From contig FN648651.1 in NCBI GenBank assembly GCA_000310025.1, forward strand, positions 13,541 through 74,356: a stretch of DNA of 60,816 nucleotides, in the 5' to 3' direction. The notes below the pieces were generated by a model that was given only the letters and a program-made list of their open reading frames with translations, was not told where the DNA came from and did not search any database. The stretch is from Ectocarpus siliculosus. Lineage: Eukaryota > Sar > Phaeophyceae > Ectocarpales > Ectocarpaceae. This document shows, piece by piece, positions 20,371 through 51,300 of this stretch. The first letter of the stretch is position 1. Every line of letters starts with the position of its first letter. Both the position numbers and the translations under genes were made by a program.

Positions 20371-20551
20371 AACATTTTGAAATGGGGCAGGTCGCGAAAA
20401 TGTTTCCCAAGAGCGGCGAGATTAGTAGCCGACCGCCCCTTCCGTCCTAAACACCAACCACTGCGTAGCGCACACTCAACGTAGTAAGCTCATAGAGGGA
20501 TCCGGGCAACCCTAGAGTCACCGTGTCAATGTTTTGCCGGCTGATACATGG
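20371..20551 (+). repeat. 181-bp direct repeat, left copy
   Basis: Identical by eye to 23,257-23,437 over 181 bases, starting AACATTTTGAAATGGGG and ending CTGATACATGG. It forms the left border of the truncated Ngaro-like insertion. Confidence 0.85.
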
Positions 20552-21835
20552 TTAACTCTACTCGCCAACAGCACGAGTGCTTCCACTCGTTGGCGCGTCC
20601 CGTGCTGAGGCTGACATCACATATGCAGCACGGGTGCTTCCACTCATTGGCGCGTCCCGTACTGATGCGTGATTTGTGGTATTTTTGTACCGCTGCGTTG
20701 AATTCGGTTAACTCTACTCGCCAACAGCACGGGTGCTTCCACTCATTGGCGCGTCCCGTGCTGATACGTGTACGGCGTTTTGTTCTTTCTTTTTGAGATC
20801 GGTTAACTCTACTCGCCAACAGCACTCATTGGCGCGTCCCGTGCTGAGGCTGACATCACATATGCAGCACGGGTGCTTCCACTCATTGGCGCGTCCCGTA
20901 CTGATGCGTGATTTGTGGTATTTTTGTACCGCTGCGTTGAATTCGGTTAACTCTACTCGCCAACAGCACGGGTGCTTCCACTCATTGGCGCGTCCCGTGC
21001 TGATACGTGTACGGCGTTTTGTTCTTTCTTTTTGAGATCGGTTAACTCTACTCGCCAACAGCACTCATTGGCGCGTCCCTTGCTGAGGCTGACATCACAT
21101 ATGCAGCACGGGTACTTCCACTCATTGGCGCGTCCCGTACTGATGCGTGATTTGTGGTATTTTTGTACCGCTGCGTTGAATTCGGTTAACTCTACTCGCC
21201 AACAGCACGGGTGCTTCCACTCATTGGCGCATCCCGTGCTGATACGTGTACGGCGTTTTGTTCTTTCTTTTTGAGATCGGTTAACTCTACTCGCCAATAG
21301 CACTCATTGGCGCGTCCCTTGCTGAAACTGACAACACATATGCAGCACGGGTGCTTCCACTCATTGGCGCGTCCCGTACTGATACGTCAACGACTTCGTT
21401 TTCGATGCGTGGAGATCGGTTAACTCTACTCGCCAACAGCACGGGTGTGTCCACTCATTGGCGCGTCCCGTGCTGATACGTGTACGGCGTTTCGTTCTTT
21501 CTTTTTGAGATCGGTTAACTCTACTCGCCAACAGCACGAGTGCTTCCACTCATTGGCGCGTCCCGTGCTGAGGCTGACATCACATATGCAGCACGGGTGC
21601 TTCCACTCATTGGCGCGTCCCGTACTGATGCATGATTTGTGGTATTTTTGTACCGCTGCGTTGAATTCGGTTAACTCTACTCGCCGACAGCGCGGGTGCT
21701 TCCACTCATTGGCGCATCCCGTGCTGATACATGTATGACTTCGTGTTTCGTTGCGTTGAGATCGGTTAACTTCCACTCGCGAACAGCACGGACGAGTGCT
21801 TCCACTATTGGCGCGTCCCGTGCTGGTGCGTGTCC
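20552..21835 (-). repeat. Hairpin array, copy 1 (about 16 units)
   Basis: Units contain CAGCACGGG, a conserved roughly 21-base spacer (TGCTTCCACTCATTGGCGCG-like) and CCCGTGCTG, so each can fold into a 9-bp stem. Units are separated by two alternating spacers. A 239-bp higher-order unit repeats three times (starts near 20,580, 20,819 and 21,058). Three shortened units lack the left part of the loop, apparently deleted between CAC microhomologies. Confidence 0.85.
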
Positions 21836-22931
21836 TTGTTTTTTTTTTCCATTGAGATCACTTCCGCATAGACAATCCTACGGCAGGTTGACGAGTTTTT
21901 GGCATGCATCAATTGCTGTCCGGGCGTTTTTGGAACGGTCGCTTAATCGTCGATGGACGTGACGTATTCTTATAGAAGGTTTGTGTCACATTGGCAATAA
22001 CTTTGACGTGATGCCCCTCGAGACCGTGATGCACTCGCACGGACGGTTACCTGGCGATCTTCGCGAGGTCGAACCTCGCGTGTGACTTTCACCTTCCCCC
22101 CCTTTTTTTTTCTCATCTTCTTTTTCCTTATGCATACAGCACGTAGTTCGCTGTCTCGTTTTTTTTTCTCGTCTTCTTTGTTTTTCAGTCTTTTTCTTTG
22201 AGTCTTTCTCTCGCATGCATGTGGTTTTGCTTTTATCCGTTCCCGTGAATGCTGTTGAATGCACTTTCCGATTACGCATGCGGCCGCTTTGTATGCCGTG
22301 GGACTTGTCGATACCATCAGTGGGGACTTGTCAATACCATCCGTGGAGACGATTGCTTACGTGAGTGAGCATATTATCGTCGATTCCTTCAGCTATATGC
22401 CCCTATGTGCGCGGCACAGACAAGATTGTACCGGCAAGTAGTCCCTAGTAAGCCGGGGGAAACAGAAAACAAGGCACCTGCCTCATGTGCATACTCGTGA
22501 CAGCATCATGCCCTACTGCCGCGGGTCGATTGGTTATGTCCGATGCCGCAGGGTTCCTCCACCCCGCGCAGTACAATGGCTGCTATCGACCGCGACAAGT
22601 CAGCGTGCGACCATACAACAGGCCCCGCTCTTTCTTTTTGCCGTTGAATTTTTTTTTTCTTCAGCGAGAGTACGTCTCGGTTGGGACGAACCGCATTTTT
22701 TTTTTTCTTCAGCGAGAGTACGTCTTGGTTGGGATGAACCGCATCTCATGTTTGGGAAGGGACCTATCTGAGCGGCGCGGAGAGCGAGACTGCGGTGGCT
22801 TGCCGCCGCTTATCTTACTGCACCCTCCCCCCTCGTGCTAAATGCACGCAGCGGTGAGGTCACAAGAGTAGCGGGACGCGAATACGTAGGAACACGGCCG
22901 ACACGATGGATGTTGGACACGAGTACACACC

Positions 22932-22937
22932 TTTATA
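22932..22937 (-). promoter_or_regulatory. TATA-like box downstream of A repeat
   Basis: Minus-strand CCATATAAAGG lies about 60 bp inside the A repeat. It is conserved at the same place (50,161-50,166) in the full element. A promoter role is inferred from position only. Confidence 0.4.
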
Positions 22938-22993
22938 TGGAGAGTCGCGTGCTGGTCGCTTCCCCAATGCTTGCGCCGTGTCCCGTCCCGCCC

Positions 22994-23256
22994 TTTTCTA
23001 AACTGCCGCCGCTACTGCGTTAGGCGGCTGCTGCTGTCCTTCCGTTGCTTCACGCGCTCTGTAGCTGTCACACGTTACCCGACTTTGCTACAGCCCCTGC
23101 ATGGACTCGATCACGGAATGACACCCCCAACTATAGACTAATAATTCCAAACACCGTGACCCTGGGTTTCCGGTAGAAAATGAAGCCAAATTCTAATTCG
23201 ACTGTTACAAAATAAACACCAGTTTATTCTATCTGCTTCGACGAACAAACCTTCCT
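22994..23256 (-). repeat. Ngaro-like A repeat of the truncated copy
   Basis: 263 bp, the same length as the A repeats at 42,552-42,814 and 50,223-50,485 and nearly identical to them. It ends GAACAAACCTTCCT on the plus strand. Confidence 0.85.
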
Positions 23257-23437
23257 AACATTTTGAAATGGGGCAGGTCGCGAAAATGTTTCCCAAGAGC
23301 GGCGAGATTAGTAGCCGACCGCCCCTTCCGTCCTAAACACCAACCACTGCGTAGCGCACACTCAACGTAGTAAGCTCATAGAGGGATCCGGGCAACCCTA
23401 GAGTCACCGTGTCAATGTTTTGCCGGCTGATACATGG
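23257..23437 (+). repeat. 181-bp direct repeat, right copy
   Basis: Exact counterpart of 20,371-20,551, directly joined to the outer end of the A repeat. Confidence 0.85.
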
Positions 23438-29568: not shown

Positions 29569-30202
29569 CAGAAGAAACAAAAATTATCACGTGGTAGTGA
29601 TCTGACCATGGTCCGGCCAGGTTTCAGAACATGAGTTGACCGCAAAATGCAACGCACTGCTAACAACGGCATAATCTTTGTTATTGCAAGCAAGTGTTGT
29701 AGATAATCAAAAACAAAGATTGAAACGTACGTATGTTGGAGGTAGGTCGAACATTCTCCTTATCGCAGAATTGCGTATATTCTCGATGTAAAGAGAGTTC
29801 GCCTTGCGGACGAAGAAGGATCCTTGACCGTTCGTCGTCTACGCGATTATCTGTCCAACTCCTGGTGTATTGATGACCTGAAGGTGCGCGTGATGAAAGC
29901 CAGCATAACATTGTTGGTTTGTCGATTCGGACGAGGTAGTAGGTGTTGCGGGGAAAATATTAACCTTTGGGGCACATGCGCGGAGGGTTGTGCGCGGAAT
30001 AACTGTTGTCGTTTCGGATTTTGTTTTTTGAAAAAATGTGTTTGATGATCTGATTGGATAAATTTGCGGTGAGATTCTAGTTGAAAGGCGATTCCGCTGC
30101 ATGCACGAATCGCCACGATGACATACCGCAGTGTGGATGAATTCTTGTAGGACATCCCGAGGAAATAAAACTTTAAACATCACAACTGGGACACTCGATA
30201 AT

Positions 30203-31443
30203 AGGAAGGTTTGTTCGTCGAAGCAGATAGAATAAACTGGTGTTTATTTTGTAACAGTCGAATTAGAATTTGGCTTCATTTCTACCGGAAACCCAGGGTC
30301 ACGGTGTTTGGAATTATTAGTCTATAGTTGGGGGTGTCATTCCGTGATCGAGTCCACGCAGGGGCTGTAGCAAAGTCGGGTAACGTGTGACAGCTACAGA
30401 GCGCGTGAAGCAACGGAAGGACAGCAGCAGCCGCCTAACGCAGTAGCGGCGGCAGTCTCGAGACGAAGTCACCGGACCGCAGTCAGGTGTGAGAGCACGC
30501 GGCGGCGCGGTGGCTCTTGTGGTGGAGCTGTTATCGTGTCATGCGACGTTGCCTGACTCCGCACCGTTGGCTTCGTACCGTAGTGGAAGAGCAGTGAGAG
30601 TAGTGAGGTATACTGCTGCCCTCCGTGCAGTCAGAGAAGTGGTAACGAAGTCGGGGCGTAACCCCCAGGAGTACGCGTTGCACTCGTTGCGAATTGGAGG
30701 CGCGACGGCTCTTGCATCGGGCGGAGACATCGCAGAACGAGTGATTCAGAGAGAAGGGAAGTGGAGGTCGGATGCATACAAGCCGTACGCGCGAAACAAT
30801 GTAGAGGATTCGCGGCGAGTGTCACGGAAACTTACAGACGGCAGTAGCATCGCATCGAGACAGCCGGGGGAAGGGACCGTCTGGGGGAACGGATAGTTGA
30901 CTTATTCGGTAGTCGTCCAGAAACTGACCTCGATGTGGGTGTTGTAGAATGGTGTGTACCATTTGAGGACTTGGTCAGTTTTGGGACTCCTGCGTTTGCA
31001 GTCGTAGTCCCCCGGCTAGTATTTTTGGGGAGAGAGATGGATTTGTAAGAGTTGACGCCGGCCTTTGCAGCTAACGCGGCCGGAGAGACGATGAGCGTTT
31101 CGTGCGTCTCTCTCCCCAACACGTAGCCTAGAAACCGAAGAAATAATGAAGCAATTCGAAAGAAAACAAAATAAAAGGAAGGTTTGTTCGTCGAAGCAGA
31201 TAGAATAAACTGGTGTTTATTTTGTAACAGTCGAATTAGAATTTGGCTTCATTTCTACCGGAAACCCAGGGTCACGGTGTTTGGAATTATTAGTCTATAG
31301 TTGGGGGTGTCATTCCGTGATCCAGTCCACGCAGGGGCTGTAGCAAAGTCGGGTAACGTGTGACAGCTACAGAGCGCGTGAAGCAACGGAAGGACAGCAG
31401 CAGCCGCCTAACGCAGTAGCGGCGGCAGTCTAGAAAATCCCGC
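30203..31443 (+). mobile_element. Internally deleted Ngaro-like copy (A1, recombinase end, B1, A2)
   Basis: Plus-strand orientation: A repeat 30,203-30,457, then the 3' third of the tyrosine recombinase, then B (about 30,939-31,175), then A (31,176 to about 31,438). About 6.6 kb between A1 and the recombinase end is missing, and the final B2 is absent. The 9-base word CGATAATAG lies on both borders (30,196-30,204 and 31,444-31,452). Confidence 0.8.
30489..30896 (+). pseudogene. Tyrosine recombinase C-terminal fragment
   Basis: 135 residues nearly identical to the C-terminal part of the 43,095-44,177 recombinase. It contains HSLRIGGATALASGG and the WRSDAYKPYARNN active-site region. The N-terminal core-binding part and the first catalytic Arg are gone, so no activity is expected. 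Confidence 0.85.
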
Positions 31444-31452
31444 CGATAATAG

Positions 31453-42244: not shown

Positions 42245-42483
42245 TTTATTTTGTTTTCTTTCGAATTGCTTCATTATTTCTTCGGTTTCTAGGCTACGTG
42301 TTGGGGAGAGAGACGCACGAAACGCTCATCGTCTCTCCGGCCGCGTTAGCTGCAAAGGCCGGCGTCAACTCTTACAAATCCATCTCTCTCCCCACAAATA
42401 CTAGCCGGGGGACTACGACTGCAAACGCAGGAGTCCCAAAAACTGACCAAGTCCTCAAATGGTAGACACCATTCTACAACACC
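42245..42483 (-). repeat. Ngaro-like B2 repeat
   Basis: 239 bp, nearly identical to B1. Begins TTTATTTTGTTTTCTTTCG on the plus strand. Confidence 0.9.
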
Positions 42484-42551: not shown

Positions 42552-42814
42552 TTTTCTAAACTGCCGCCGCTACTGCGTAAGGCGGCTGCTGCTGTCCTTC
42601 CGTTGCTTCACGCGCTCTGTAGCTGTCACACGTTACCCGACTTTGCTACAGCCCCTGCGTGGACTCGATCACGGAATGACACCCCCAACTATAGACTAAT
42701 AATTCCCAACGCCGTGACCCTGGGTTTCCGGTAGAAAATGAAGCCAAATTCTAATTCGACTGTTACAAAATAAACACCAGTTTATTCTATCTGCTTCGAC
42801 GAACAAACCTTCCT
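42552..42814 (-). repeat. Ngaro-like A2 repeat
   Basis: 263 bp, nearly identical to A1 at 50,223-50,485. Abuts B1 directly. Confidence 0.9.
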
Positions 42815-43053
42815 TTTATTTTGTTTTCTTTCGAATTGCTTCATTATTTCTTCGGTTTCTAGGCTGCGTGTTGGGGAGAGAGACGCACGAAACGCTCATC
42901 GTCTCTCCGGCCGCGTTAGCTGCAAAGGCCGGCGTCAACTCTTACAAATCCATCTCTCTCCCCACAAATACTAGCCGGGGGACTACGACTGCAAACGCAG
43001 GAGTCCCAAAAACTGACCAAGTCCTCAAATGGTAGACACCATTCTACAACACC
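42815..43053 (-). repeat. Ngaro-like B1 repeat
   Basis: 239 bp counterpart of B2. It lies just downstream of the recombinase stop codon. Confidence 0.9.
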
Positions 43054-43094: not shown

Positions 43095-44177
43095 CTATCC
43101 GTTCCCCCAGACGGTCCCCTCCCCCGGCTGTCTCGATACGATCCTACTGCCGTCTGTAAGTTTCCGTGACACTCGCCGCGAATCCTCTACATTGTTTCGC
43201 GCGTACGGCTTGTATGCATCCGACCTCCACTTCCCTTCTCTCTGAATCACTCGTTCTGCGATGTCTCCGCCCGATGCAAGAGCCGTCGCGCCTCCAATTC
43301 GCAACGAGTGCAACGCGTACTCCTGGGGGTTACGCCCCGACTTCGTTACCACTTCTCTGACTGCACGGAGGGCAGCACTATACCTCGCTACTCTCACAGC
43401 TCTTCTACTACGGTACGAAGCTAGCGGTGCGGAGTCAGGCAACGTCGCATGACACGATAACAGCTCCACCACAAGAGCCACCGCGCCGCCGCGTGCTCTC
43501 ACACCTGACTGCGGTCCGGTGACTTCGTCTCGCGTACGAACCCGTATGTTTCCTTTCTGCTCTTGATCGGCCTTGTGCCCTCTAAACCTCATTTCGACAC
43601 GGTCTGCTCGACGATATTGACTAAAGACTAATTGCGTCTCGCCAGCAAACAATGCTACATCCGCCCTCGTAAGACAGTGTGCCTCATGCACCCTGCCCGC
43701 ATCATTCGCGAACACCTCATCAGACCGTGTGATGAAGAGATAGGACAAGCACAGACACAGCCACATCACTCTGCCCCCTTCCCCCCAGTTCTGGCTTGCG
43801 CTTTCCCCGTCCAGCAGCATACGCCAAGACACAGGCAGACGCACACGGCGTACCGTGCCCATAGCCACGTGGTTCCTCGCAATCCCCCTTAGCGCACATT
43901 TCAACATCAGAGACGACAAGTCGAGCTCGACAGAAGCTTCCAGCCTATGAAAATGTTGTACAGCCGTGATTTTTCCGGATATTGTACTCGCTAGATTACC
44001 CTCAGACTCGAAACACCAGGCTACGAAGCCTATCAACTCCCAGACATGAAGGTCCCCGGTACGTTGCCCTAGGAACTTGGGCTTCTCCGTCAGCCTCCGA
44101 AACGTGCACCAAGAGTTGAAGCCTGACGTGTAAGTCCTTCTAGACGAAGACGCAACTGAGTGCTCGACGAGCTGCAT
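43095..44177 (-). CDS. Tyrosine recombinase (DIRS/Ngaro type)
   Basis: 360 residues from ATG at 44,177. The N-terminal part (about 1-110) resembles a SAM-like core-binding domain (SSSRRTYTSGFNSWCTF). The catalytic domain has the first Arg in LFITRSDEVF, HxxR in HSLRIGGATALASGG, and the nucleophile region WRSDAYKPYARNN. The enzyme would join the circular cDNA to the genome by strand exchange, replacing an integrase. The start codon overlaps the end of the RNase H frame by about 87 nt, so it is probably expressed by reinitiation or a separate transcript. No stop or frameshift interrupts it. Near-identity with the fragment at 30,489-30,896 suggests recent activity. Confidence 0.9.
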   Translation of the reverse strand: MQLVEHSVASSSRRTYTSGFNSWCTFRRLTEKPKFLGQRTGDLHVWELIGFVAWCFESEGNLASTISGKITAVQHFHRLEASVELDLSSLMLKCALRGIARNHVAMGTVRRVRLPVSWRMLLDGESASQNWGEGGRVMWLCLCLSYLFITRSDEVFANDAGRVHEAHCLTRADVALFAGETQLVFSQYRRADRVEMRFRGHKADQEQKGNIRVRTRDEVTGPQSGVRARGGAVALVVELLSCHATLPDSAPLASYRSRRAVRVARYSAALRAVREVVTKSGRNPQEYALHSLRIGGATALASGGDIAERVIQREGKWRSDAYKPYARNNVEDSRRVSRKLTDGSRIVSRQPGEGTVWGNG

Positions 44178-46380
44178 GCCAAAACGTCGGTAACAAAGTC
44201 CCGTCCTGCCTGTCCCAGGTCCTGAACCTGCCAGTCGATATCCGGTCGGAACGCGCGCAAGTTTGAGGCAATGCTATCGTGGTTCCACCGAGAGATGCCG
44301 TCTGCCAGTGTATTAGAGATGCCTTTCACGTGACGCGCGCGGAAACACCACCCGCTTCGCATCTCTAAACATCCTAGAATACGCATTAGCGCTCCCGACC
44401 TCGGCTCTCTAGGTCCCCTGCAACGGTTACACCAATGGATGGAGCTCATGTTGTCCCCACGAAGCAAAACGCTTTGACCAGGATACTCGGATGTAGAGTC
44501 TGCGTCTACCGTGAAAGCCCACGCTGTAACGACCATCCCCAACAGCTCGAGGACGTTGATGCTTAAGTCGTCTCTACCGACTGCCTTGCGACGCAGCCGT
44601 TGTCGGACATCATCCGAGAAATCCATTCGCCAGTATTGCCCCGACTCTAAGCAGTATCCTCCCATGGCGTCCCCACTCGCGTCACTCCACAGCGTTCGAG
44701 AGTGAGGTTGCAGATACATGCTGTAAAGCGGCATCTCTAGCCTACCCTCGCCGTGAAGGCCGCTGGCCTCTGCTAGCATCATACGCCAGAACGACGCGTC
44801 GGCGCGGAACTCGGGACCCAGAGAAATGACCCGTCTCGATTGGCCCTGGCGTACTCCCCCCTTCGAGCCGATGTACTTCTCTTCCCACGGTTGGGAGGGG
44901 GGGCATACCCAACTGGTTGAGCATGCGTCGCACAAAGAAACTTTCCAGGGCGAACAACCACACACACGTGCAACAGCTTCCCCATCAGCGACCGCACTTC
45001 GGTCTCCGACGCGCTACGACGAACTACCCATCCTTCAAGCGCCTCACGCAACGTCGCTAACTTTTGTTGAGGAAGAGAAATCGACATAGCCTTCGTGTCT
45101 ATTACCCAACCCAACACTTCCATGCTCGCCTCCCACGACGTAAGTTTGCTAGCTGAAAATAGTGGTGGGAAACCGTGGGGTCTGTCACCGAAGAGTCGAA
45201 AGTGGTCAGAAACGAGAGATTCGGAAATGATCACACAAAGGTCACCGCGGGGGTGGGACCAGTGCACTTCTACCCCTATAACATCGTCCACATACGCCCG
45301 CGCGAAAAACGGGTCGTCTACTCCTCCACCGGAACCGGGTGGGATTGCACACGCCGCTGGCAGCATCGTTTGAACTTCTGCTGATTCCACCACCGAAATA
45401 TGTGCGGTAGCAAGCCGCCCTTGCGGCGTCGGCGTTGCGTTTGCGGCTGATGTTTTGTTGTGGGAGTGCTCAATCGCTGCTGTGCACAGGCAAAAATACG
45501 GGGGGCTGAGGTTCCATCCAAACTGCAGTTGCCTGTCTACAACGAGCGTGCCTCCAAACACGTATCCGAACTTCGGGGAGTGCGCTCGCTCTACGGATAC
45601 TTGCCGAAACGCGTCTTTGGAATCGACTTTAGCAATCAGAATTGTGGGGGTGTCTCCATGGGCGTCACGCACAAACTTTCCATGCAGGTACAGCACGCGC
45701 CAAACCACATCACGCAATACGTGGCCCAGTTTGCAGACCGGTGCCACGGAAGTGTTGGTATCGTCGTTTACACCCGAAAATCGGAGATCGTTGATGATCC
45801 TAGCTTTCTTGGTGTTCACTACTACTCCCAATGGAGACAAGCGTAGGCCGGGAATCTGGTATGCCGCTGACCTGGGAAACACGAATGCACGCCCGTACCG
45901 GACGTCCTCCTTGATTTTTTTCTGAATGAGGTCCGTATGCTGTGAAACAGATGCATGGTTACCGTACGCGAGAGCTTCATCTACGTCACCGCCTGCTGCT
46001 ATCTGCACCGGGACACCTCTAGACACAATCCGCACCAGAAGATCGATGGAGGGGAACTGTTTTACCCCACCAAACCATTGACGCACGCTACGTGGGTCTG
46101 TTTGCGGCACGGGCAGTATTGTTTCGAGTTGCGACATGGAATCGAAGTCCCCTGCATGACTAAGAAGGAAAGCAAGGCTAACGTCCTCTACGCGACTCAA
46201 CGCTTTCCTCGCTGATTCGCCCCCCCTCGCGGCAATTAGTTCGTCCACCGCATGTCCATAAACACACACGTCGGCATCCACACCTGCTGATAGCCCCGGG
46301 GCCAACCTCGTGTAGACCGGCGTGCTGCCGTTCAATTTAGCCGCATGTGCGCTGCCATCCGAGGTAGGCCGCCCCGCCAC
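44090..46380 (-). CDS. Reverse transcriptase-RNase H, frameshifted
   Basis: The RT part (46,380 to about 44,940) holds RIINDLRFSG, KVDSKDAFRQV, FGWNLSPPYFCL and the active-site YVDD (45,294-45,283). The RNase H part (to 44,090) holds LWSDASGDAMGGY, NVLELLGM, VLLRGDNMSSIHW and NTLADGISRW, the D-E-D-D pattern of DIRS-type RNase H. Between them the frame moves twice, near 44,940 and at a G7 run near 44,896-44,902; the linking segment FFVRRMLNQLGMPP is in the third frame. The homopolymer shift could be a sequencing error. The frame opens directly after the gag TAG in the same phase and has no early ATG, so readthrough from gag is plausible. Confidence 0.88.
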
Positions 46381-46398
46381 GCGGGAGAGCCCGCACCC

Positions 46399-47862
46399 CT
46401 ATTTGTCTTTCCCGTGGGTGAGGAAGTCAGCGGCCTTGGGTCTCGCGCCGCCCTCGCCAGCGGCGCGCGCCTCTCCTCCGCGCCCTCCCCCGTTGCCGTG
46501 GCCAACGCTGCGACCGCGGTGCTTGTCGCTCGTGGCGCTCCCGCCGACACCGCCCCGGCCGACACGAAACGTCACGCTGCTGGCTGCCCTCCCGCGCGCG
46601 CCGGTTGCCGGAGTTTCGGACGCTCCGCGCCTAGCGTGGGAAGGGTTCTGGGCATGGATGTACGGGCAGTTACGATCATGGCAACCGGCCGACGAGTTGA
46701 AGGCGAAGCAGTAACCACGCGATCTTCCGGAAGTGGTCCCCCGGGCTCGCTTGGACGGCGATAGGAGCTGTTCTCCTGCCCGTATCTGAGGCTGGTAGAA
46801 GGCGGCGGCGCCGACCCCGCCCATGGCGATGAAGCCAGTAATCCTCTTCCACTCGATGGTTACCACGGGTGGAAAATCCTCGATGACAGTCGGCGGCGCA
46901 GAGTTTGTTGTCTTGAAACTGATGGCGGCGTCAAACCACCGCGATGCGAACAGGATTAGGTCGTCGTTGATGAATCCCGCGAACCGGAGTTTCTTCGCGA
47001 GATTCCGCATCTCGCCGCGGTTTTCACGACAGTGCTCGGTGACCATCTCCAAGCCGACGTTGAGGGACTCCTCGAGGATGCCCACGCGCTGGAGACTCTC
47101 AGAATCGGTAATGCCTGTTTTGAGCAACGCCGATATGGTCGTGATGAGGATCGAGAGCGACTCTTCCAACGGAACGTCGGCGTTAGACGTGTCAGATCCC
47201 GAACGGTAGTCTTCCACCCGGAAGTTTGAGAGCGTGTCGAGCGATGCCGCCACTTTCTCTGTCACCAGAACGCCTTTGCGAAGCAAGGATTGCCACTCCA
47301 TCTGCGACAGTTTTGAAACTGCCGGAGGCCGTCTCAGGATGAGCCACGCTTTTACCCGGCGGAGGTCCCCCCACATCCGCGCTCTATCCTTTGCCGCAGC
47401 TTTAGCCGCCTCGGCGCTGGGTGTAGCGGGGGCCCGAGAGGCCGGTAGTGGGGCGGTTGTGCCCACCAGTTGCACCTCCCCCTGAAGGCCAGGTCCTGCT
47501 GCTTGGGTGGCGATCAGGTCGTCGATCGTTGCTTGAAGCTGCTGGCGATCGCCGGCGGCCTCATCGCGCTTCCGCTGCAGCTCCTCCCTCAGGCCGTCCA
47601 CCAGCCCGCGGAGAGAAGCGAGCTCAGTCTCATCAGCGGGGGGGTCGCCGCGGGTGCCTGTCCCTCGCGCTCGCGAGGAGGATACCGCTCGACGCCTCGC
47701 GGGAGTACGTGATCCGCTGCGCGTCGAGGGGCGAGCCGTCGAGCTCGCCACCGATCGCGTGGTAGACCTCCTCGTGCGTGGTGTCGAGGGTGTCGCCGCC
47801 CGACCTCGCCCTGCTTGCCCAGCCGCTGCCCTGCCGCTCCGCGTGGAGGCCCGTGTCGGCAT
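46399..47862 (-). CDS. Gag-like protein with CCCH zinc finger
   Basis: From the first ATG at 47,862 the product is 487 aa. The N-terminus (about 80 aa) is Arg/Ser/Thr/Ala-rich. A predicted coiled coil follows (ELASLRGLVDGLREELQRKR). The central part is the likely capsid-like region (MEWQSLLRKGVLV and on). Near the C-terminus is a CX8CX4CX3H finger, CFAFNSSAGCHDRNCPYIH, common in gag of Ngaro/DIRS elements of algae and protists. A Gly/Arg/Ala-rich tail ends at TAG (46,401-46,399). It would package element RNA. Confidence 0.8.
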   Translation of the reverse strand: MPTRASTRSGRAAAGQAGRGRAATPSTPRTRRSTTRSVASSTARPSTRSGSRTPARRRAVSSSRARGTGTRGDPPADETELASLRGLVDGLREELQRKRDEAAGDRQQLQATIDDLIATQAAGPGLQGEVQLVGTTAPLPASRAPATPSAEAAKAAAKDRARMWGDLRRVKAWLILRRPPAVSKLSQMEWQSLLRKGVLVTEKVAASLDTLSNFRVEDYRSGSDTSNADVPLEESLSILITTISALLKTGITDSESLQRVGILEESLNVGLEMVTEHCRENRGEMRNLAKKLRFAGFINDDLILFASRWFDAAISFKTTNSAPPTVIEDFPPVVTIEWKRITGFIAMGGVGAAAFYQPQIRAGEQLLSPSKRARGTTSGRSRGYCFAFNSSAGCHDRNCPYIHAQNPSHARRGASETPATGARGRAASSVTFRVGRGGVGGSATSDKHRGRSVGHGNGGGRGGEARAAGEGGARPKAADFLTHGKDK

Positions 47863-48267
47863 CTGGTCGCGGTTGGAGTCGTATAAGCAGCGAACCGGCG
47901 GCAGGCGGCGGGCCAACGTCAGGGCGGCGTTTCGGGAACACTTCTTTTCCTCTTCATCGTGGGCGTAGTCGATCGCGCGCCTGGATCTGCAGTTAGAATG
48001 GTCTACAAATCCAATCTTCGGGCGAAACTATCTGACGAGGCTTTTCGTCGGGCCCAGAACGACGCGTTGTTATATCGCGAGCTTGCGTTAGTTCGTTCTC
48101 GACGCTTGTGGATTGAGTGGAGTGATTATTGCTGCTGACGCTACGGTCACCGTACGTCGACCAATCCCGAATATTTCTCTCGTTGGAACACTAGCGATGT
48201 TTTTATTTTATTTTATTTTTTTATATATATATATTTTCTTGGATTCGGTGAACCCCGGTTCGCCATC

Positions 48268-49110
48268 GACACGGGTGCTTCCACTCATTGGCGCGTCCCG
48301 TGCTAATACGTGTTTTTATTCTTTTCTTCGATGCGTTGGATACGGTAAACTCCACTTGCCAACAGCGCGGGTGCTTCCACTCATTGGCGCGTCCCTCGCT
48401 AAAACTGACAACACATATGCAGCACGGGTGCTTCCACTCATTGGCGCGTCCCGTACTGATACTTATACGCAGCGCGGGTGCTTCCACTCATTGGCGCGTC
48501 CCTTGCTGAAACTGACAACGCATATGCAGCACGGGTGCTTCCACTCATTGGCGCGTCCCGTACTGATACGTGTACGACTTCGTTTTCGATGCGTGGAAAT
48601 CGGTTAATTCTACTCGCCAACAGCACGGGTGCGTCCACTCCTTGGCGCGTCCCGTGCTGATACGTGTACGGCTTTTTTTTTTTTCTTTCTTGTTGAGATC
48701 GGTTAACTCTACTCGCCAACAGCACGAGTGCTTCCACTCGTTGGCGCGTCCCATGCTGAGGCTGACATCACATATGCAGCACGGGTGCTTCCACTCATTG
48801 GCGCGTCCCGTACTGATGCGTGATTTGTGGTATTTTTCTACCGCTGCGTTGAATTCGGTTAACTCTATTCGCCAACAGCGCGGATGCTTCCATTCGTTGG
48901 CACGTCCCGTGCTGAGGCTGCCAGCACACATGCAACGCCATGCGGTCAGCTCTACTCGCCAACAGCGCGGGTGCTTCCACTCATTGGCGCGTCCCGCGCT
49001 GATACATGTATAACTTCGTGTTTCGGTGCGTTGAGATCGGTTAACTTCCACTCGCCAACAACACGGACGAGTGCTTCCACTATTGGCGCGTCCGTGCTGG
49101 TGCGTGTCCG
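48268..49110 (-). repeat. Hairpin array in the leader, copy 2 (about 11 units)
   Basis: Same units as 20,552-21,835, between the promoter-like box and gag. Stem halves mostly read CAGCACGGG and CCCGTGCTG. At 48,962 both halves changed together (CAGCGCGGG with CCCGCGCTG). Some units have a single mismatch (CCCGTACTG). The loop TGCTTCCACTCATTGGCGCG is more conserved than needed for pairing. Confidence 0.85.
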
Positions 49111-50160
49111 TATATTTTTTTTCATTGAGATCACTTCCGCATGGACAATCCTACGGCAGGTTGACGAGTTCTGGCATGCATCAATTGCTGTCCGGGCGTT
49201 TTTGGAACGGTCGCTCAATCGTCGTTGGATGTGACGTATTGTTATAGAAGGTTTGTGTCACGGTGTGTGCGCGCACGACTTGATGCCCCTCGAGACCTTG
49301 GTACACCCAGATTGACCTTTGAATGACGGCCTTCGCAGGTTCGAACGTCGCGGTCATTTTCTTCTCCCCCTTTTTTTTTTCTCATCTTCTTTTTCCTCAT
49401 GCATACAAGACGTAGTTCGCTGTCTCGTTTTTTTTTCCTCGTCTTCTTTGTTTTTCAGTATTTTTCTTTGAGTCTTTCTCTCGCATGCATGTGATTTTTG
49501 CTTTTATCCGTTCCCGTGAGTGCTGTTGAATGCACTTTCCGATTACGTATGCGGCCGCTTTGTATACCGTGGGACTTGTCAATACCATCAGTGGGGACTT
49601 GTCAATACCATCCGTTGAGACGATTGCTTACGTGAGTGAGCATATTATCGTGGATTCCTTCAGCTATATGCCCCTCTGTGCGTGGCACCGATAAGGTTGT
49701 ACCGGCAAGTAGTCCCTAGTAAGCCGGGGAAAACAGAAAACAAGGCACCTGCCTCATGTGCATACTCTTGACAGCATCATGCCCTACTGCCGCGGGTCGA
49801 TTGGTTATGTCCGAAGCCGCAAGGTTCCTCCACCCCGTGCAGTACAATGGCTGCTATCGTGGCACGTACAGCAACCGCGACAAGTCAGCGTGCGACCATA
49901 CAACAGGCCCCGCGCTTTCTTTTTTCCGTTGAATTTTTTCTTCAGCGAGAGTACATCTCGATTGGGATGAACCGCATCCCATGTTTGGGGAGGTACCTAT
50001 CTGAGCGGCGTGGCGAGCGAGACTGCGGTGGCTTGCCGCCGCTTATCTTACTGCACCCTCCCCCCTCGTGCTAAATGCACGCAGCGGTGATGTCACAAGA
50101 GTAGCGGGACGCGAATAGGAACACGGCCGACACGATGGATGTTGGACACGCGTACACACC
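49111..50160 (-). other. Ngaro-like leader between promoter-like box and hairpin array
   Basis: Co-linear with 21,836-22,931. Non-coding. Contains T/C-rich blocks near 49,368-49,470 and a doubled CTTGTCAATACCATC near 49,576-49,610. In the other copy a roughly 56-bp block (CTTCAGCGAGAGTACGTCT) is tandemly duplicated (22,660-22,745); here it is single. Confidence 0.7.
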
Positions 50161-50166
50161 TTTATA
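50161..50166 (-). promoter_or_regulatory. TATA-like box of the Ngaro-like element
   Basis: CCATATAAAGG on the minus strand, about 57 bp inside A1 and conserved in the truncated copy. A role as core promoter is inferred. Confidence 0.4.
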
Positions 50167-50222
50167 TGGAGAGTCGCGTGCTGGTCGCTTCCCCAATGCT
50201 TGCGCCGTGTCCCGTCCCGCCC

Positions 50223-50485
50223 TTTTCTAAACTGCCGCCGCTACTGCGTAAGGCGGCTGCTGCTGTCCTTCCGTTGCTTCACGCGCTCTGTAGCTGTCAC
50301 ACGTTACCCGACTTTGCTACAGCCCCTGCGTGGACTCGATCACGGAATGACACCCCCAACTATAGACTAATAATTCCCAACGCCGTGGCCCTGGGTTTCC
50401 GGTAGAAAATGAAGCCAAATTCTAATTCGACTGTTACAAAATAAACACCAGTTTATTCTATCTGCTTCGACGAACAAACCTTCCT
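50223..50485 (-). repeat. Ngaro-like A1 repeat
   Basis: 263 bp. The 5' end of the element on the minus strand, nearly identical to A2. Confidence 0.9.
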
Positions 50486-50639
50486 GTTTTTTCATGTTTT
50501 GGTCTCTACATTGCGTGTGCGTATTCGTTGCCTGGCTGCTTTCCTGTTCTTTCCGTTTCCTCCGTGGAGCTCGTCACCTGCTTCCACCCTTCTTGATTTC
50601 TTCTGTAGGGGTGACAGCAACGGGGGCTTATTTTCTATC

Positions 50640-51300
50640 GTCTCGCCGGCAACAACCACGCCATTTCTCAAACGCGTGCAGCTTCGCCTTCGTCCTACGG
50701 CACTGTCTTTGCGACTAACCTTTCGGTATGCCATGTTGAGCATAGGTTGGACCCTTCGCGCTTACGGAATGCTCGATTCGTGCTCACCGAGTATTCCATA
50801 TGCATGTTTAGTATTTTCCAACGTCTCTTCGGCAACAGCCACGCCAATCCGTCCTCGGACACTGTCTTCGACTAAGTTTAGCCTTTCGGTATGCCTTCCT
50901 CAGTGTACGTTGGACCCTTTGTGCTTTCGGAATGCTCGGTTCGTCCTGGCCGAGAATTCCATGTTCATCGTTTCTATATTCTATGGTCTCTTTGGCAACA
51001 GTCACGCCACTTCCATGCGCGTCGTGTTCCTCCTCGGACGCTGTCTTTGAGAGCTTTCGGTGTACCTTCCTGAGTATACGTTGGGCCCGTCGTGCTCTCG
51101 CACTGCTCGGTTCGTGCTCACCGAGTACTCCGCGTTCATCCTATGTATTTTCTTCGTCTCTTCGGCAACAGATACGCGAATTCTTCGCCTTCTTCCTCGG
51201 ACACTTTCTGCGATCATGCTTTCGGTATGCCTTCCCGAGTATAGGTTGGAACCTTTGCGCTTAAGGAATTCTCCGTTCGTGCTTGATGACTATGCCATAA
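50640..51300 (+). repeat. Tandem repeat, period about 167 bp
   Basis: Units start with TTTCGGTATGCC-type words near 50,720, 50,885, 51,055 and 51,220. Each has GTTGGACC, TGCTCG, CCGAGTATTCC-like and TCTTCGGCAACAG blocks, with a partial unit before. About 3.5 to 4 diverged copies. The long open frames across it follow the repeat and are not called. Confidence 0.7.

Follow-up and report, generated by a model that had tools for sequence, protein, structure and literature searches.

A tandem array of quasi-palindromic units in the leader of an Ngaro-like retrotransposon of Ectocarpus siliculosus: a candidate cluster of regulatory binding sites

The Ngaro-like element and its coding regions

The window, that is, the whole stretch of 60,816 nucleotides of Ectocarpus siliculosus DNA analysed here, carries on its minus strand an Ngaro-like element, as the first-pass annotation had supposed. 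Self-comparison gives the order A1-ORFs-B1-A2-B2, the split direct repeats of Ngaro elements, a layout described as A1-ORFs-B1A2B2 in the excerpted text of PMC8547959. A1, the 5′ end of the element, lies at 50223-50500 (278 bp, 98% identical to 42552-42827) and B1 at 42815-43053 (239 bp, 99.6% identical to 42245-42483); the same comparison places A2 at 42552-42827 and B2 at 42245-42483. Near the inner edge of A1 there is a TATA-like box (sense CCATATAAAGG, 50160-50170), which is a consensus match only. An exact match to it occurs in 9 of the 19 loci L001-L019, the window copy being one of the nine, and also in a truncated copy elsewhere in the window. Reading on towards gag, the array of palindromic units occupies 48267-49099, and a TATA-like tract (48222-48234) stands between it and gag. 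In the part of the leader that separates A1 from the array there is a 23-nt tandem motif (GGGACTTGTCAATACCATC...) at 49568-49611, found again at 22300-22350. Just outside the A1 end, at 50629-51283, are diverged direct repeats of ~160 bp that are ~71% identical.

Four open reading frames follow. The gag-like ORF extends over 46399-47862 if the first in-frame ATG is assumed to be the start (the open frame begins at 48027); by eye it contains a CCCH-like motif, C-x8-C-x4-C-x3-H, and no relative in public sequences was found at E 0.001 among 7990 candidates scored. The sole Pfam match of the four is that of the reverse transcriptase ORF (44779-46398) to RVT_1; it is weak, with E 0.012, and falls short of the curated cut-off. 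This ORF has 26 relatives in public sequences (E 0.001 or better), the best at 63% identity, and the same query gave no confirmed relative among viral contigs. The next ORF, 44090-45013, is probably the RNase H region, judging from its position. The last, at 43095-44273, has by eye an HSLR...KW...Y motif, which we take to be the signature of a tyrosine recombinase. Of the combination expected in an Ngaro element, a reverse transcriptase of DIRS type with a tyrosine recombinase in place of an integrase, what is seen here is a weak Pfam match and a motif recognised by eye.

The truncated second copy, at 20550-23256 and likewise on the minus strand, consists of A1, leader and array only. It is flanked by a direct duplication of 181 bp (20371-20551 and 23257-23437), 100% identical, which far exceeds a normal target-site duplication. 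A further piece, on the opposite strand at 30198-31444, comprises the 3′ end of the recombinase with B and A repeats and is ~98% identical over its longest match.

The array and its palindromic units

Units were scored with the form CAGCACGGG-21-CCCGTGCTG, in which 9-bp arms flank a 21-base core, at a threshold of 28 of 39 consensus matches. About 11 palindromic units had been expected, and 10 regular ones of 39 nt were found, starting at 48267, 48363, 48420, 48470, 48527, 48621, 48720, 48777, 48876 and 48963 and together spanning 48267-49001, with an irregular eleventh at 49062-49099. Within the unit, a core of ~20 bp is nearly invariant (sense GCGCCAATGAGTGGAnGCA; plus strand TGCnTCCACTC[A/G]TTGGCGC). 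The arms are perfect or near-perfect in many units, and the higher-order periods of the array include 107, 156 and 239 bp. A scan of the window at 28/39 confines units to two arrays. The estimate of ~16 units for the second copy agrees with 12 regular units there plus, by eye, three that are internally deleted and one that is irregular.

Measured against shuffles, the 11 units have fold z-scores of -1.07 to -4.95 when read on the sense (minus) strand and of -1.29 to -6.07 when read on the plus strand. The palindrome is above chance but uneven among units, and units 48720 and 49062 have a best fold other than a simple 9-bp stem. Folding above the level of shuffles on either strand is a point in favour of an element acting at the level of RNA, in which hairpins of the genomic RNA would present a loop to a binding partner such as the gag zinc finger, serving packaging or dimerisation, or would control translation. 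The CCCH-like motif in gag also suits such an element, which we nevertheless regard as unlikely, largely on account of the covariation results given below. A search of Rfam over 47800-50600 found no described RNA family (the best match scored 16.2 bits, where the gathering score is 210), and the 20-base core has 0 exact matches among viral contigs.

The well-matched arms of many units would also suit hairpins that are processed into small RNAs, which would silence or mark the element, and the palindromes in Sirevirus LTRs are reportedly linked to small RNAs. We consider this very improbable. The arms are short and often mismatched, and, in the available part of PMC12477816, the 15 Ngaro families of Ectocarpus, amounting to 2.45% of the genome, have lower small-RNA levels than PAT-like DIRS elements, which counts here if the genome studied is comparable.

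The TATA-like tract and the possible start of gag transcription

The first-pass annotation placed the array between a promoter-like box and gag. This position stands, but the description misses the TATA-like tract on the gag side, which lies at a nearly fixed distance from the array. TATAWA occurs within 40 nt at 53 of the 54 unique array/gag junctions matched by a pattern that misses diverged junctions; in the one exception, the stretch ends 8 bases past the pattern. L032, a more diverged copy, has a T-run and no TATA at the site of the tract, a site that the truncated copy in the window does not reach.

From the A1-edge TATA to the assumed gag ATG (47862) there are 39 ATGs. The array has 17, against 17.7 in shuffles, and the upstream leader 21, against 19.9; only 1 follows the array-adjacent tract, against 3.5 in shuffles, with 37 of 500 as low. 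The shortage past the tract is weak and fits a short gag leader that starts beyond the array. A glance by eye found no pyrimidine tract, of the kind a leader intron would have, beside gag.

For full new copies to be made, we infer that an RNA starting in A1 is needed; therefore, the array is probably also transcribed in the genomic RNA, which is a further point for an RNA-level element. Roles of the array in both DNA and RNA are possible.

Copies in the genome and unit number

The assembly searched comprises 189 Mb in 492 contigs. Genome-wide, the 26-base core with up to 3 mismatches gave 798 + 963 (1761) matches, and the reversed control pattern gave 0. Units adjoin every one of the 40 gag-end matches scored out of 141 candidates; 28 of these gag ends are within a set of 61 arrays, and 12 are in separately fetched stretches. 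From the other side, a search with the leader gave 49 matches from 40 scored of 341 candidates, and the 35 that come within 4 bases of the array side all have units within 400 bp. Five leader copies, L040, L049, L051, L052 and L054, have no units in the fetched stretch; their matches start no earlier than query position 165 and therefore stop short of the array. For one of them, C147 (L049), an array is present beside the gag end (L076). Among the scored copies, then, units are not absent from most full-length elements, an absence that would have spoken against the first-pass reading.

The number of regular units ranges from 2 to 26 among the 61 arrays, a few of which are cut by the end of a stretch or contig, and the claim that unit number varies is borne out. 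Such variation is also what a selfish minisatellite would display, that is, repeats without function that persist by duplication and by copying of the element, the conservation of the core being due to chance and homogenisation. The higher-order periods of the array point the same way, as does the close relationship among copies, which leaves little time for divergence. We find this explanation doubtful, given the presence of arrays at all of the scored gag ends and, at collinear positions, a core that is less variable than the arms and spacers.

A large part of the copies is incomplete. Matches to gag begin at query position 231 in 29 of 40, matches to the recombinase region end at 1137 in 32 of 40, and 29 of the 40 array-bearing gag ends are without part of gag. 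In C24 the gag and recombinase matches are ~350 bp apart, so that the reverse transcriptase is missing there. The 29 partial-gag copies are probably RT-less deletion derivatives. Many near-identical copies, such as C24:2219396-2221895, resemble derivatives that have lost RT but still possess the recombinase region and the start of gag, together with leader and array. Retention of the array beside the gag ends of derivatives is as expected for a cis-acting element, and equally for any part that is not deleted.

Tyrosine recombinases of this class bind inverted repeats, and the recombinase region is retained in the probable derivatives. Both facts would suit units that serve as accessory binding sites for the element's own recombinase. 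This too is most improbable: the units are in the leader, away from the termini where recombination is expected, and the window scan places them in the two arrays only.

Covariation between the arms

If the pairing of the arms were selected, as the first-pass annotation suggested, the two halves of the stem should change together. The covariation set consisted of 920 units of at least 28/39, without N, from 64 loci and the window; 102 of these are distinct. The remainder of the 1534 unit matches are nearly all antisense matches at 25-26/39, since the unit is palindromic. One-sided departures are common (pair 4 C/A in 346 units, pair 5 G/T in 202, pair 8 A/C in 146 and pair 6 C/T in 131), whereas double Watson-Crick changes are found in 67 units at pair 5, 4 at pair 4 and 2 at pair 8. 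In 62 of the 67 doubles at pair 5, a T at position 34 disrupts pair 6; the fully restored form is present in 5. At pairs 4 and 8 there are changes that are GU-compatible on the sense strand, which can be counted in favour of an RNA element.

With APC-corrected G computed on the distinct units, the nine stem pairs rank 45, 464, 518, 539, 551, 596, 598, 606 and 609 of 630; on all units, they rank 419 to 597 of 630. On average, the stem pairs covary less than the pairs of any register tabulated. In the RNAalifold consensus, 5 pairs remain and the covariation term is -0.09.

A shuffle test was made with the 98 distinct sense-strand units of at least 32/39 (4 of the 102 being dropped) and 500 shuffles. 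Three measures are in weak excess: pairing cells (89.3% vs 88.7% in shuffles; 6 of 500 as high), cells changed on both sides (11 vs 5.0; 2 of 500 as high) and the covariation score (0.136 vs 0.125; 3 of 500 as high). These would favour an RNA element, with the caveat that related sequences often beat such shuffles without any structure. The two less error-prone measures, the number of pairs with a double change (232 of 500) and the number of further pair types (231 of 500), show no excess over shuffles, and adding inner pairs leaves the picture unchanged. There is, in short, a weak excess of double changes, and nothing singles out the stem. Compensatory changes specific to the stem, as a conserved RNA hairpin family would have, were not found: three shuffle measures are in weak excess and two are not. 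Selection on pairing as the main signal is rejected by the pair counts, mutual information with register controls, the shuffles, RNAalifold and the counterpart units described next; the proposed co-change of the stem halves gives way to changes that are mostly uncompensated, with stem pairs ranking 45th of 630 at best.

The flagged unit at 48,963

The case for compensation had been made from a single unit, at 48963-49001 on the minus strand (48,962 in the first-pass annotation), both of whose arms (CAGCGCGGG / CCCGCGCTG) differ from the commonest form. The change in its 5′ arm recurs in units 48363, 48470 and 48876, where the partner is unchanged or otherwise changed. Counterparts of the flagged unit were sought in the 51 arrays whose last regular unit shares its 3′ flank. 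Of these, 42 have the 5′-arm G with an unchanged T partner (37 plain and 5 with further changes), 5 have both changes, and 4 have the 5′-arm A. On the sense strand, the arm change most often seen in this unit results in an A.C mismatch, which weighs against an RNA element. The copies with both changes, C156 (window), C74, C27, C14 and C273, are five of the six best matches to the window array, and the sixth, C79, has the uncompensated form.

The best reading of these sequences is that the double change arose stepwise, the second change being a single event, rather than by both halves changing together. An apparent compensatory change in one copy can thus prove to be stepwise and rare after comparison with its counterparts.

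A more permissive form of the RNA explanation would not call for strict covariation. In this form, up to ~26 hairpins of the genomic RNA would show one and the same loop to the gag zinc finger, as a polyvalent packaging or dimerisation signal for which approximate pairing is sufficient. We think this quite unlikely.

Sequence constraint within the unit

What is most constant in the unit was examined in the first six units, which are collinear in 55 copies (the window copy plus 54 that align over 85% of the length with an identity of 90% or more). In these, 12 of 126 core sites (10%) are variable, as are 31 of 108 arm sites (29%) and 76 of 192 spacer sites (40%); for any variation, the contrast of arms with core has p = 0.00018 and that of spacers with arms p = 0.061. 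With at least 3 minor alleles, the counts are 4 of 126, 12 of 108 and 37 of 192, respectively (arms vs core, p = 0.020; spacers vs arms, p = 0.075). Measured from the window copy and pooled over 56 arrays, selected with looser limits, divergence is 2.1% for the core, 4.9% for the arms and 5.1% for the spacers. Neither set of counts represents independent events, because the copies are related, and the pattern could owe something to homogenisation of units within an array.

The conserved centre of ~21 bases noted in the first pass is, therefore, the least variable part of the unit at collinear positions. The arms, to judge from these alignments, may be somewhat constrained; that they vary about as much as the spacers, or only somewhat less, is a further argument against hairpins. 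Since the core and not the pairing of the arms is most constant, the array resembles a series of sites for protein binding more than a set of selected RNA hairpins.

The array as a proposed cluster of binding sites

We propose, with moderate confidence, that the units are DNA-binding sites which together form a cis-regulatory cluster in an internal promoter region of the Ngaro retrotransposon. Each unit would offer its core of ~20 bp, set within quasi-palindromic arms, to a sequence-specific factor of the host. Being directly upstream of the TATA-like tract, the array would act on a promoter at which this tract starts a gag mRNA with a short leader. Tandem duplication and loss of units, by altering their number, would tune the strength of the promoter or its chromatin state. 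What is observed in favour of this proposal is the array itself, its position, the conserved core, the conserved TATA-like tract and the want of clear compensatory evolution. Against it can be set the weakness of the ATG shortage, the T-run that the diverged L032 has in place of a TATA, the probable transcription of the array in RNA from A1, and the motif comparisons given next, which point to no bound factor. The motif is real and widespread, and from the sequence comparisons a regulatory binding-site array is its most likely identity.

The core resembles the E2F (WTTSSCGS) and CCAAT motifs, but neither identity found support. The main PCNA locus (L077, 3.3 kb) has neither E2F pattern, and TTGGCGC is present in 0 of 8 MCM loci, which partly overlap and are not anchored on promoters; scattered WTTSSCGS matches occur in some of them. 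The CCAAT motif is broken in ~9% of units, which have another base at position 21. Near 1411 of L078, a second PCNA-like open frame holds ATTGGCGCGTC in frame on the reverse strand; this 11-base match to the core is judged to be chance.

Comparison with known systems

The first-pass annotation knew of no described equivalent of the array. This is too strong, as leader arrays of gypsy and copia and Sirevirus palindromes upstream of the TATA box are in print. According to PMC7168160, the UTRs of retrotransposons frequently contain minisatellites whose repeats are clustered binding sites for proteins and function as enhancers or insulators; its examples are copia and the 12-site gypsy insulator. 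The gypsy insulator, like the present array, is a tandem array in a 5′UTR, that of Drosophila gypsy, with 12 Su(Hw) sites and an activity that depends on site number (excerpts of PMC7168160 and PMC2374998). Unlike it, gypsy is an LTR element with another site and a known bound protein, and the likeness carries no claim of homology. The copia leader enhancer is likewise a regulatory tandem repeat in a retrotransposon 5′UTR (PMC7168160), again of an LTR element and of other sequence, and the copia leader is bound by chromatin proteins (PMC2443393, as excerpted).

Sirevirus boxes, as presented in the accessible text of PMC2829016, number 8-32 palindromic units per element, and those in the LTR are clustered upstream of the TATA box. 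They are, however, palindromes of 10-20 bp with little or no spacer, located in the LTRs and upstream of env, whereas the Ngaro units have 9-bp arms around a nearly invariant, asymmetric core of 21 bp. The array does not, then, belong with the Sirevirus RM-boxes, compact palindromes with a mostly CGG-CCG core in Ty1/copia Sireviruses, given the other class of element and the 21-bp spacer. It has what characterises leader enhancer and insulator arrays, namely, short conserved motifs in tandem between a terminal repeat and gag.

Known Ngaro retrotransposons have the same layout as the present element, and a leader array is unmentioned in the available portions of PMC8547959 and PMC12477816. Titles and abstract openings of the Ngaro/DIRS literature describe no such array, a coverage that is partial and does not establish its absence in print. 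By analogy, the array appears to be of the same general kind as those of gypsy, copia and the Sireviruses, in another class of element, its conserved core being longer and asymmetric. Repeated regulatory motifs, a theme of other retrotransposon leaders, would thus extend to a tyrosine-recombinase element, and the natural variants, with their 2 to 26 units, form a set in which site number can be tested against activity.
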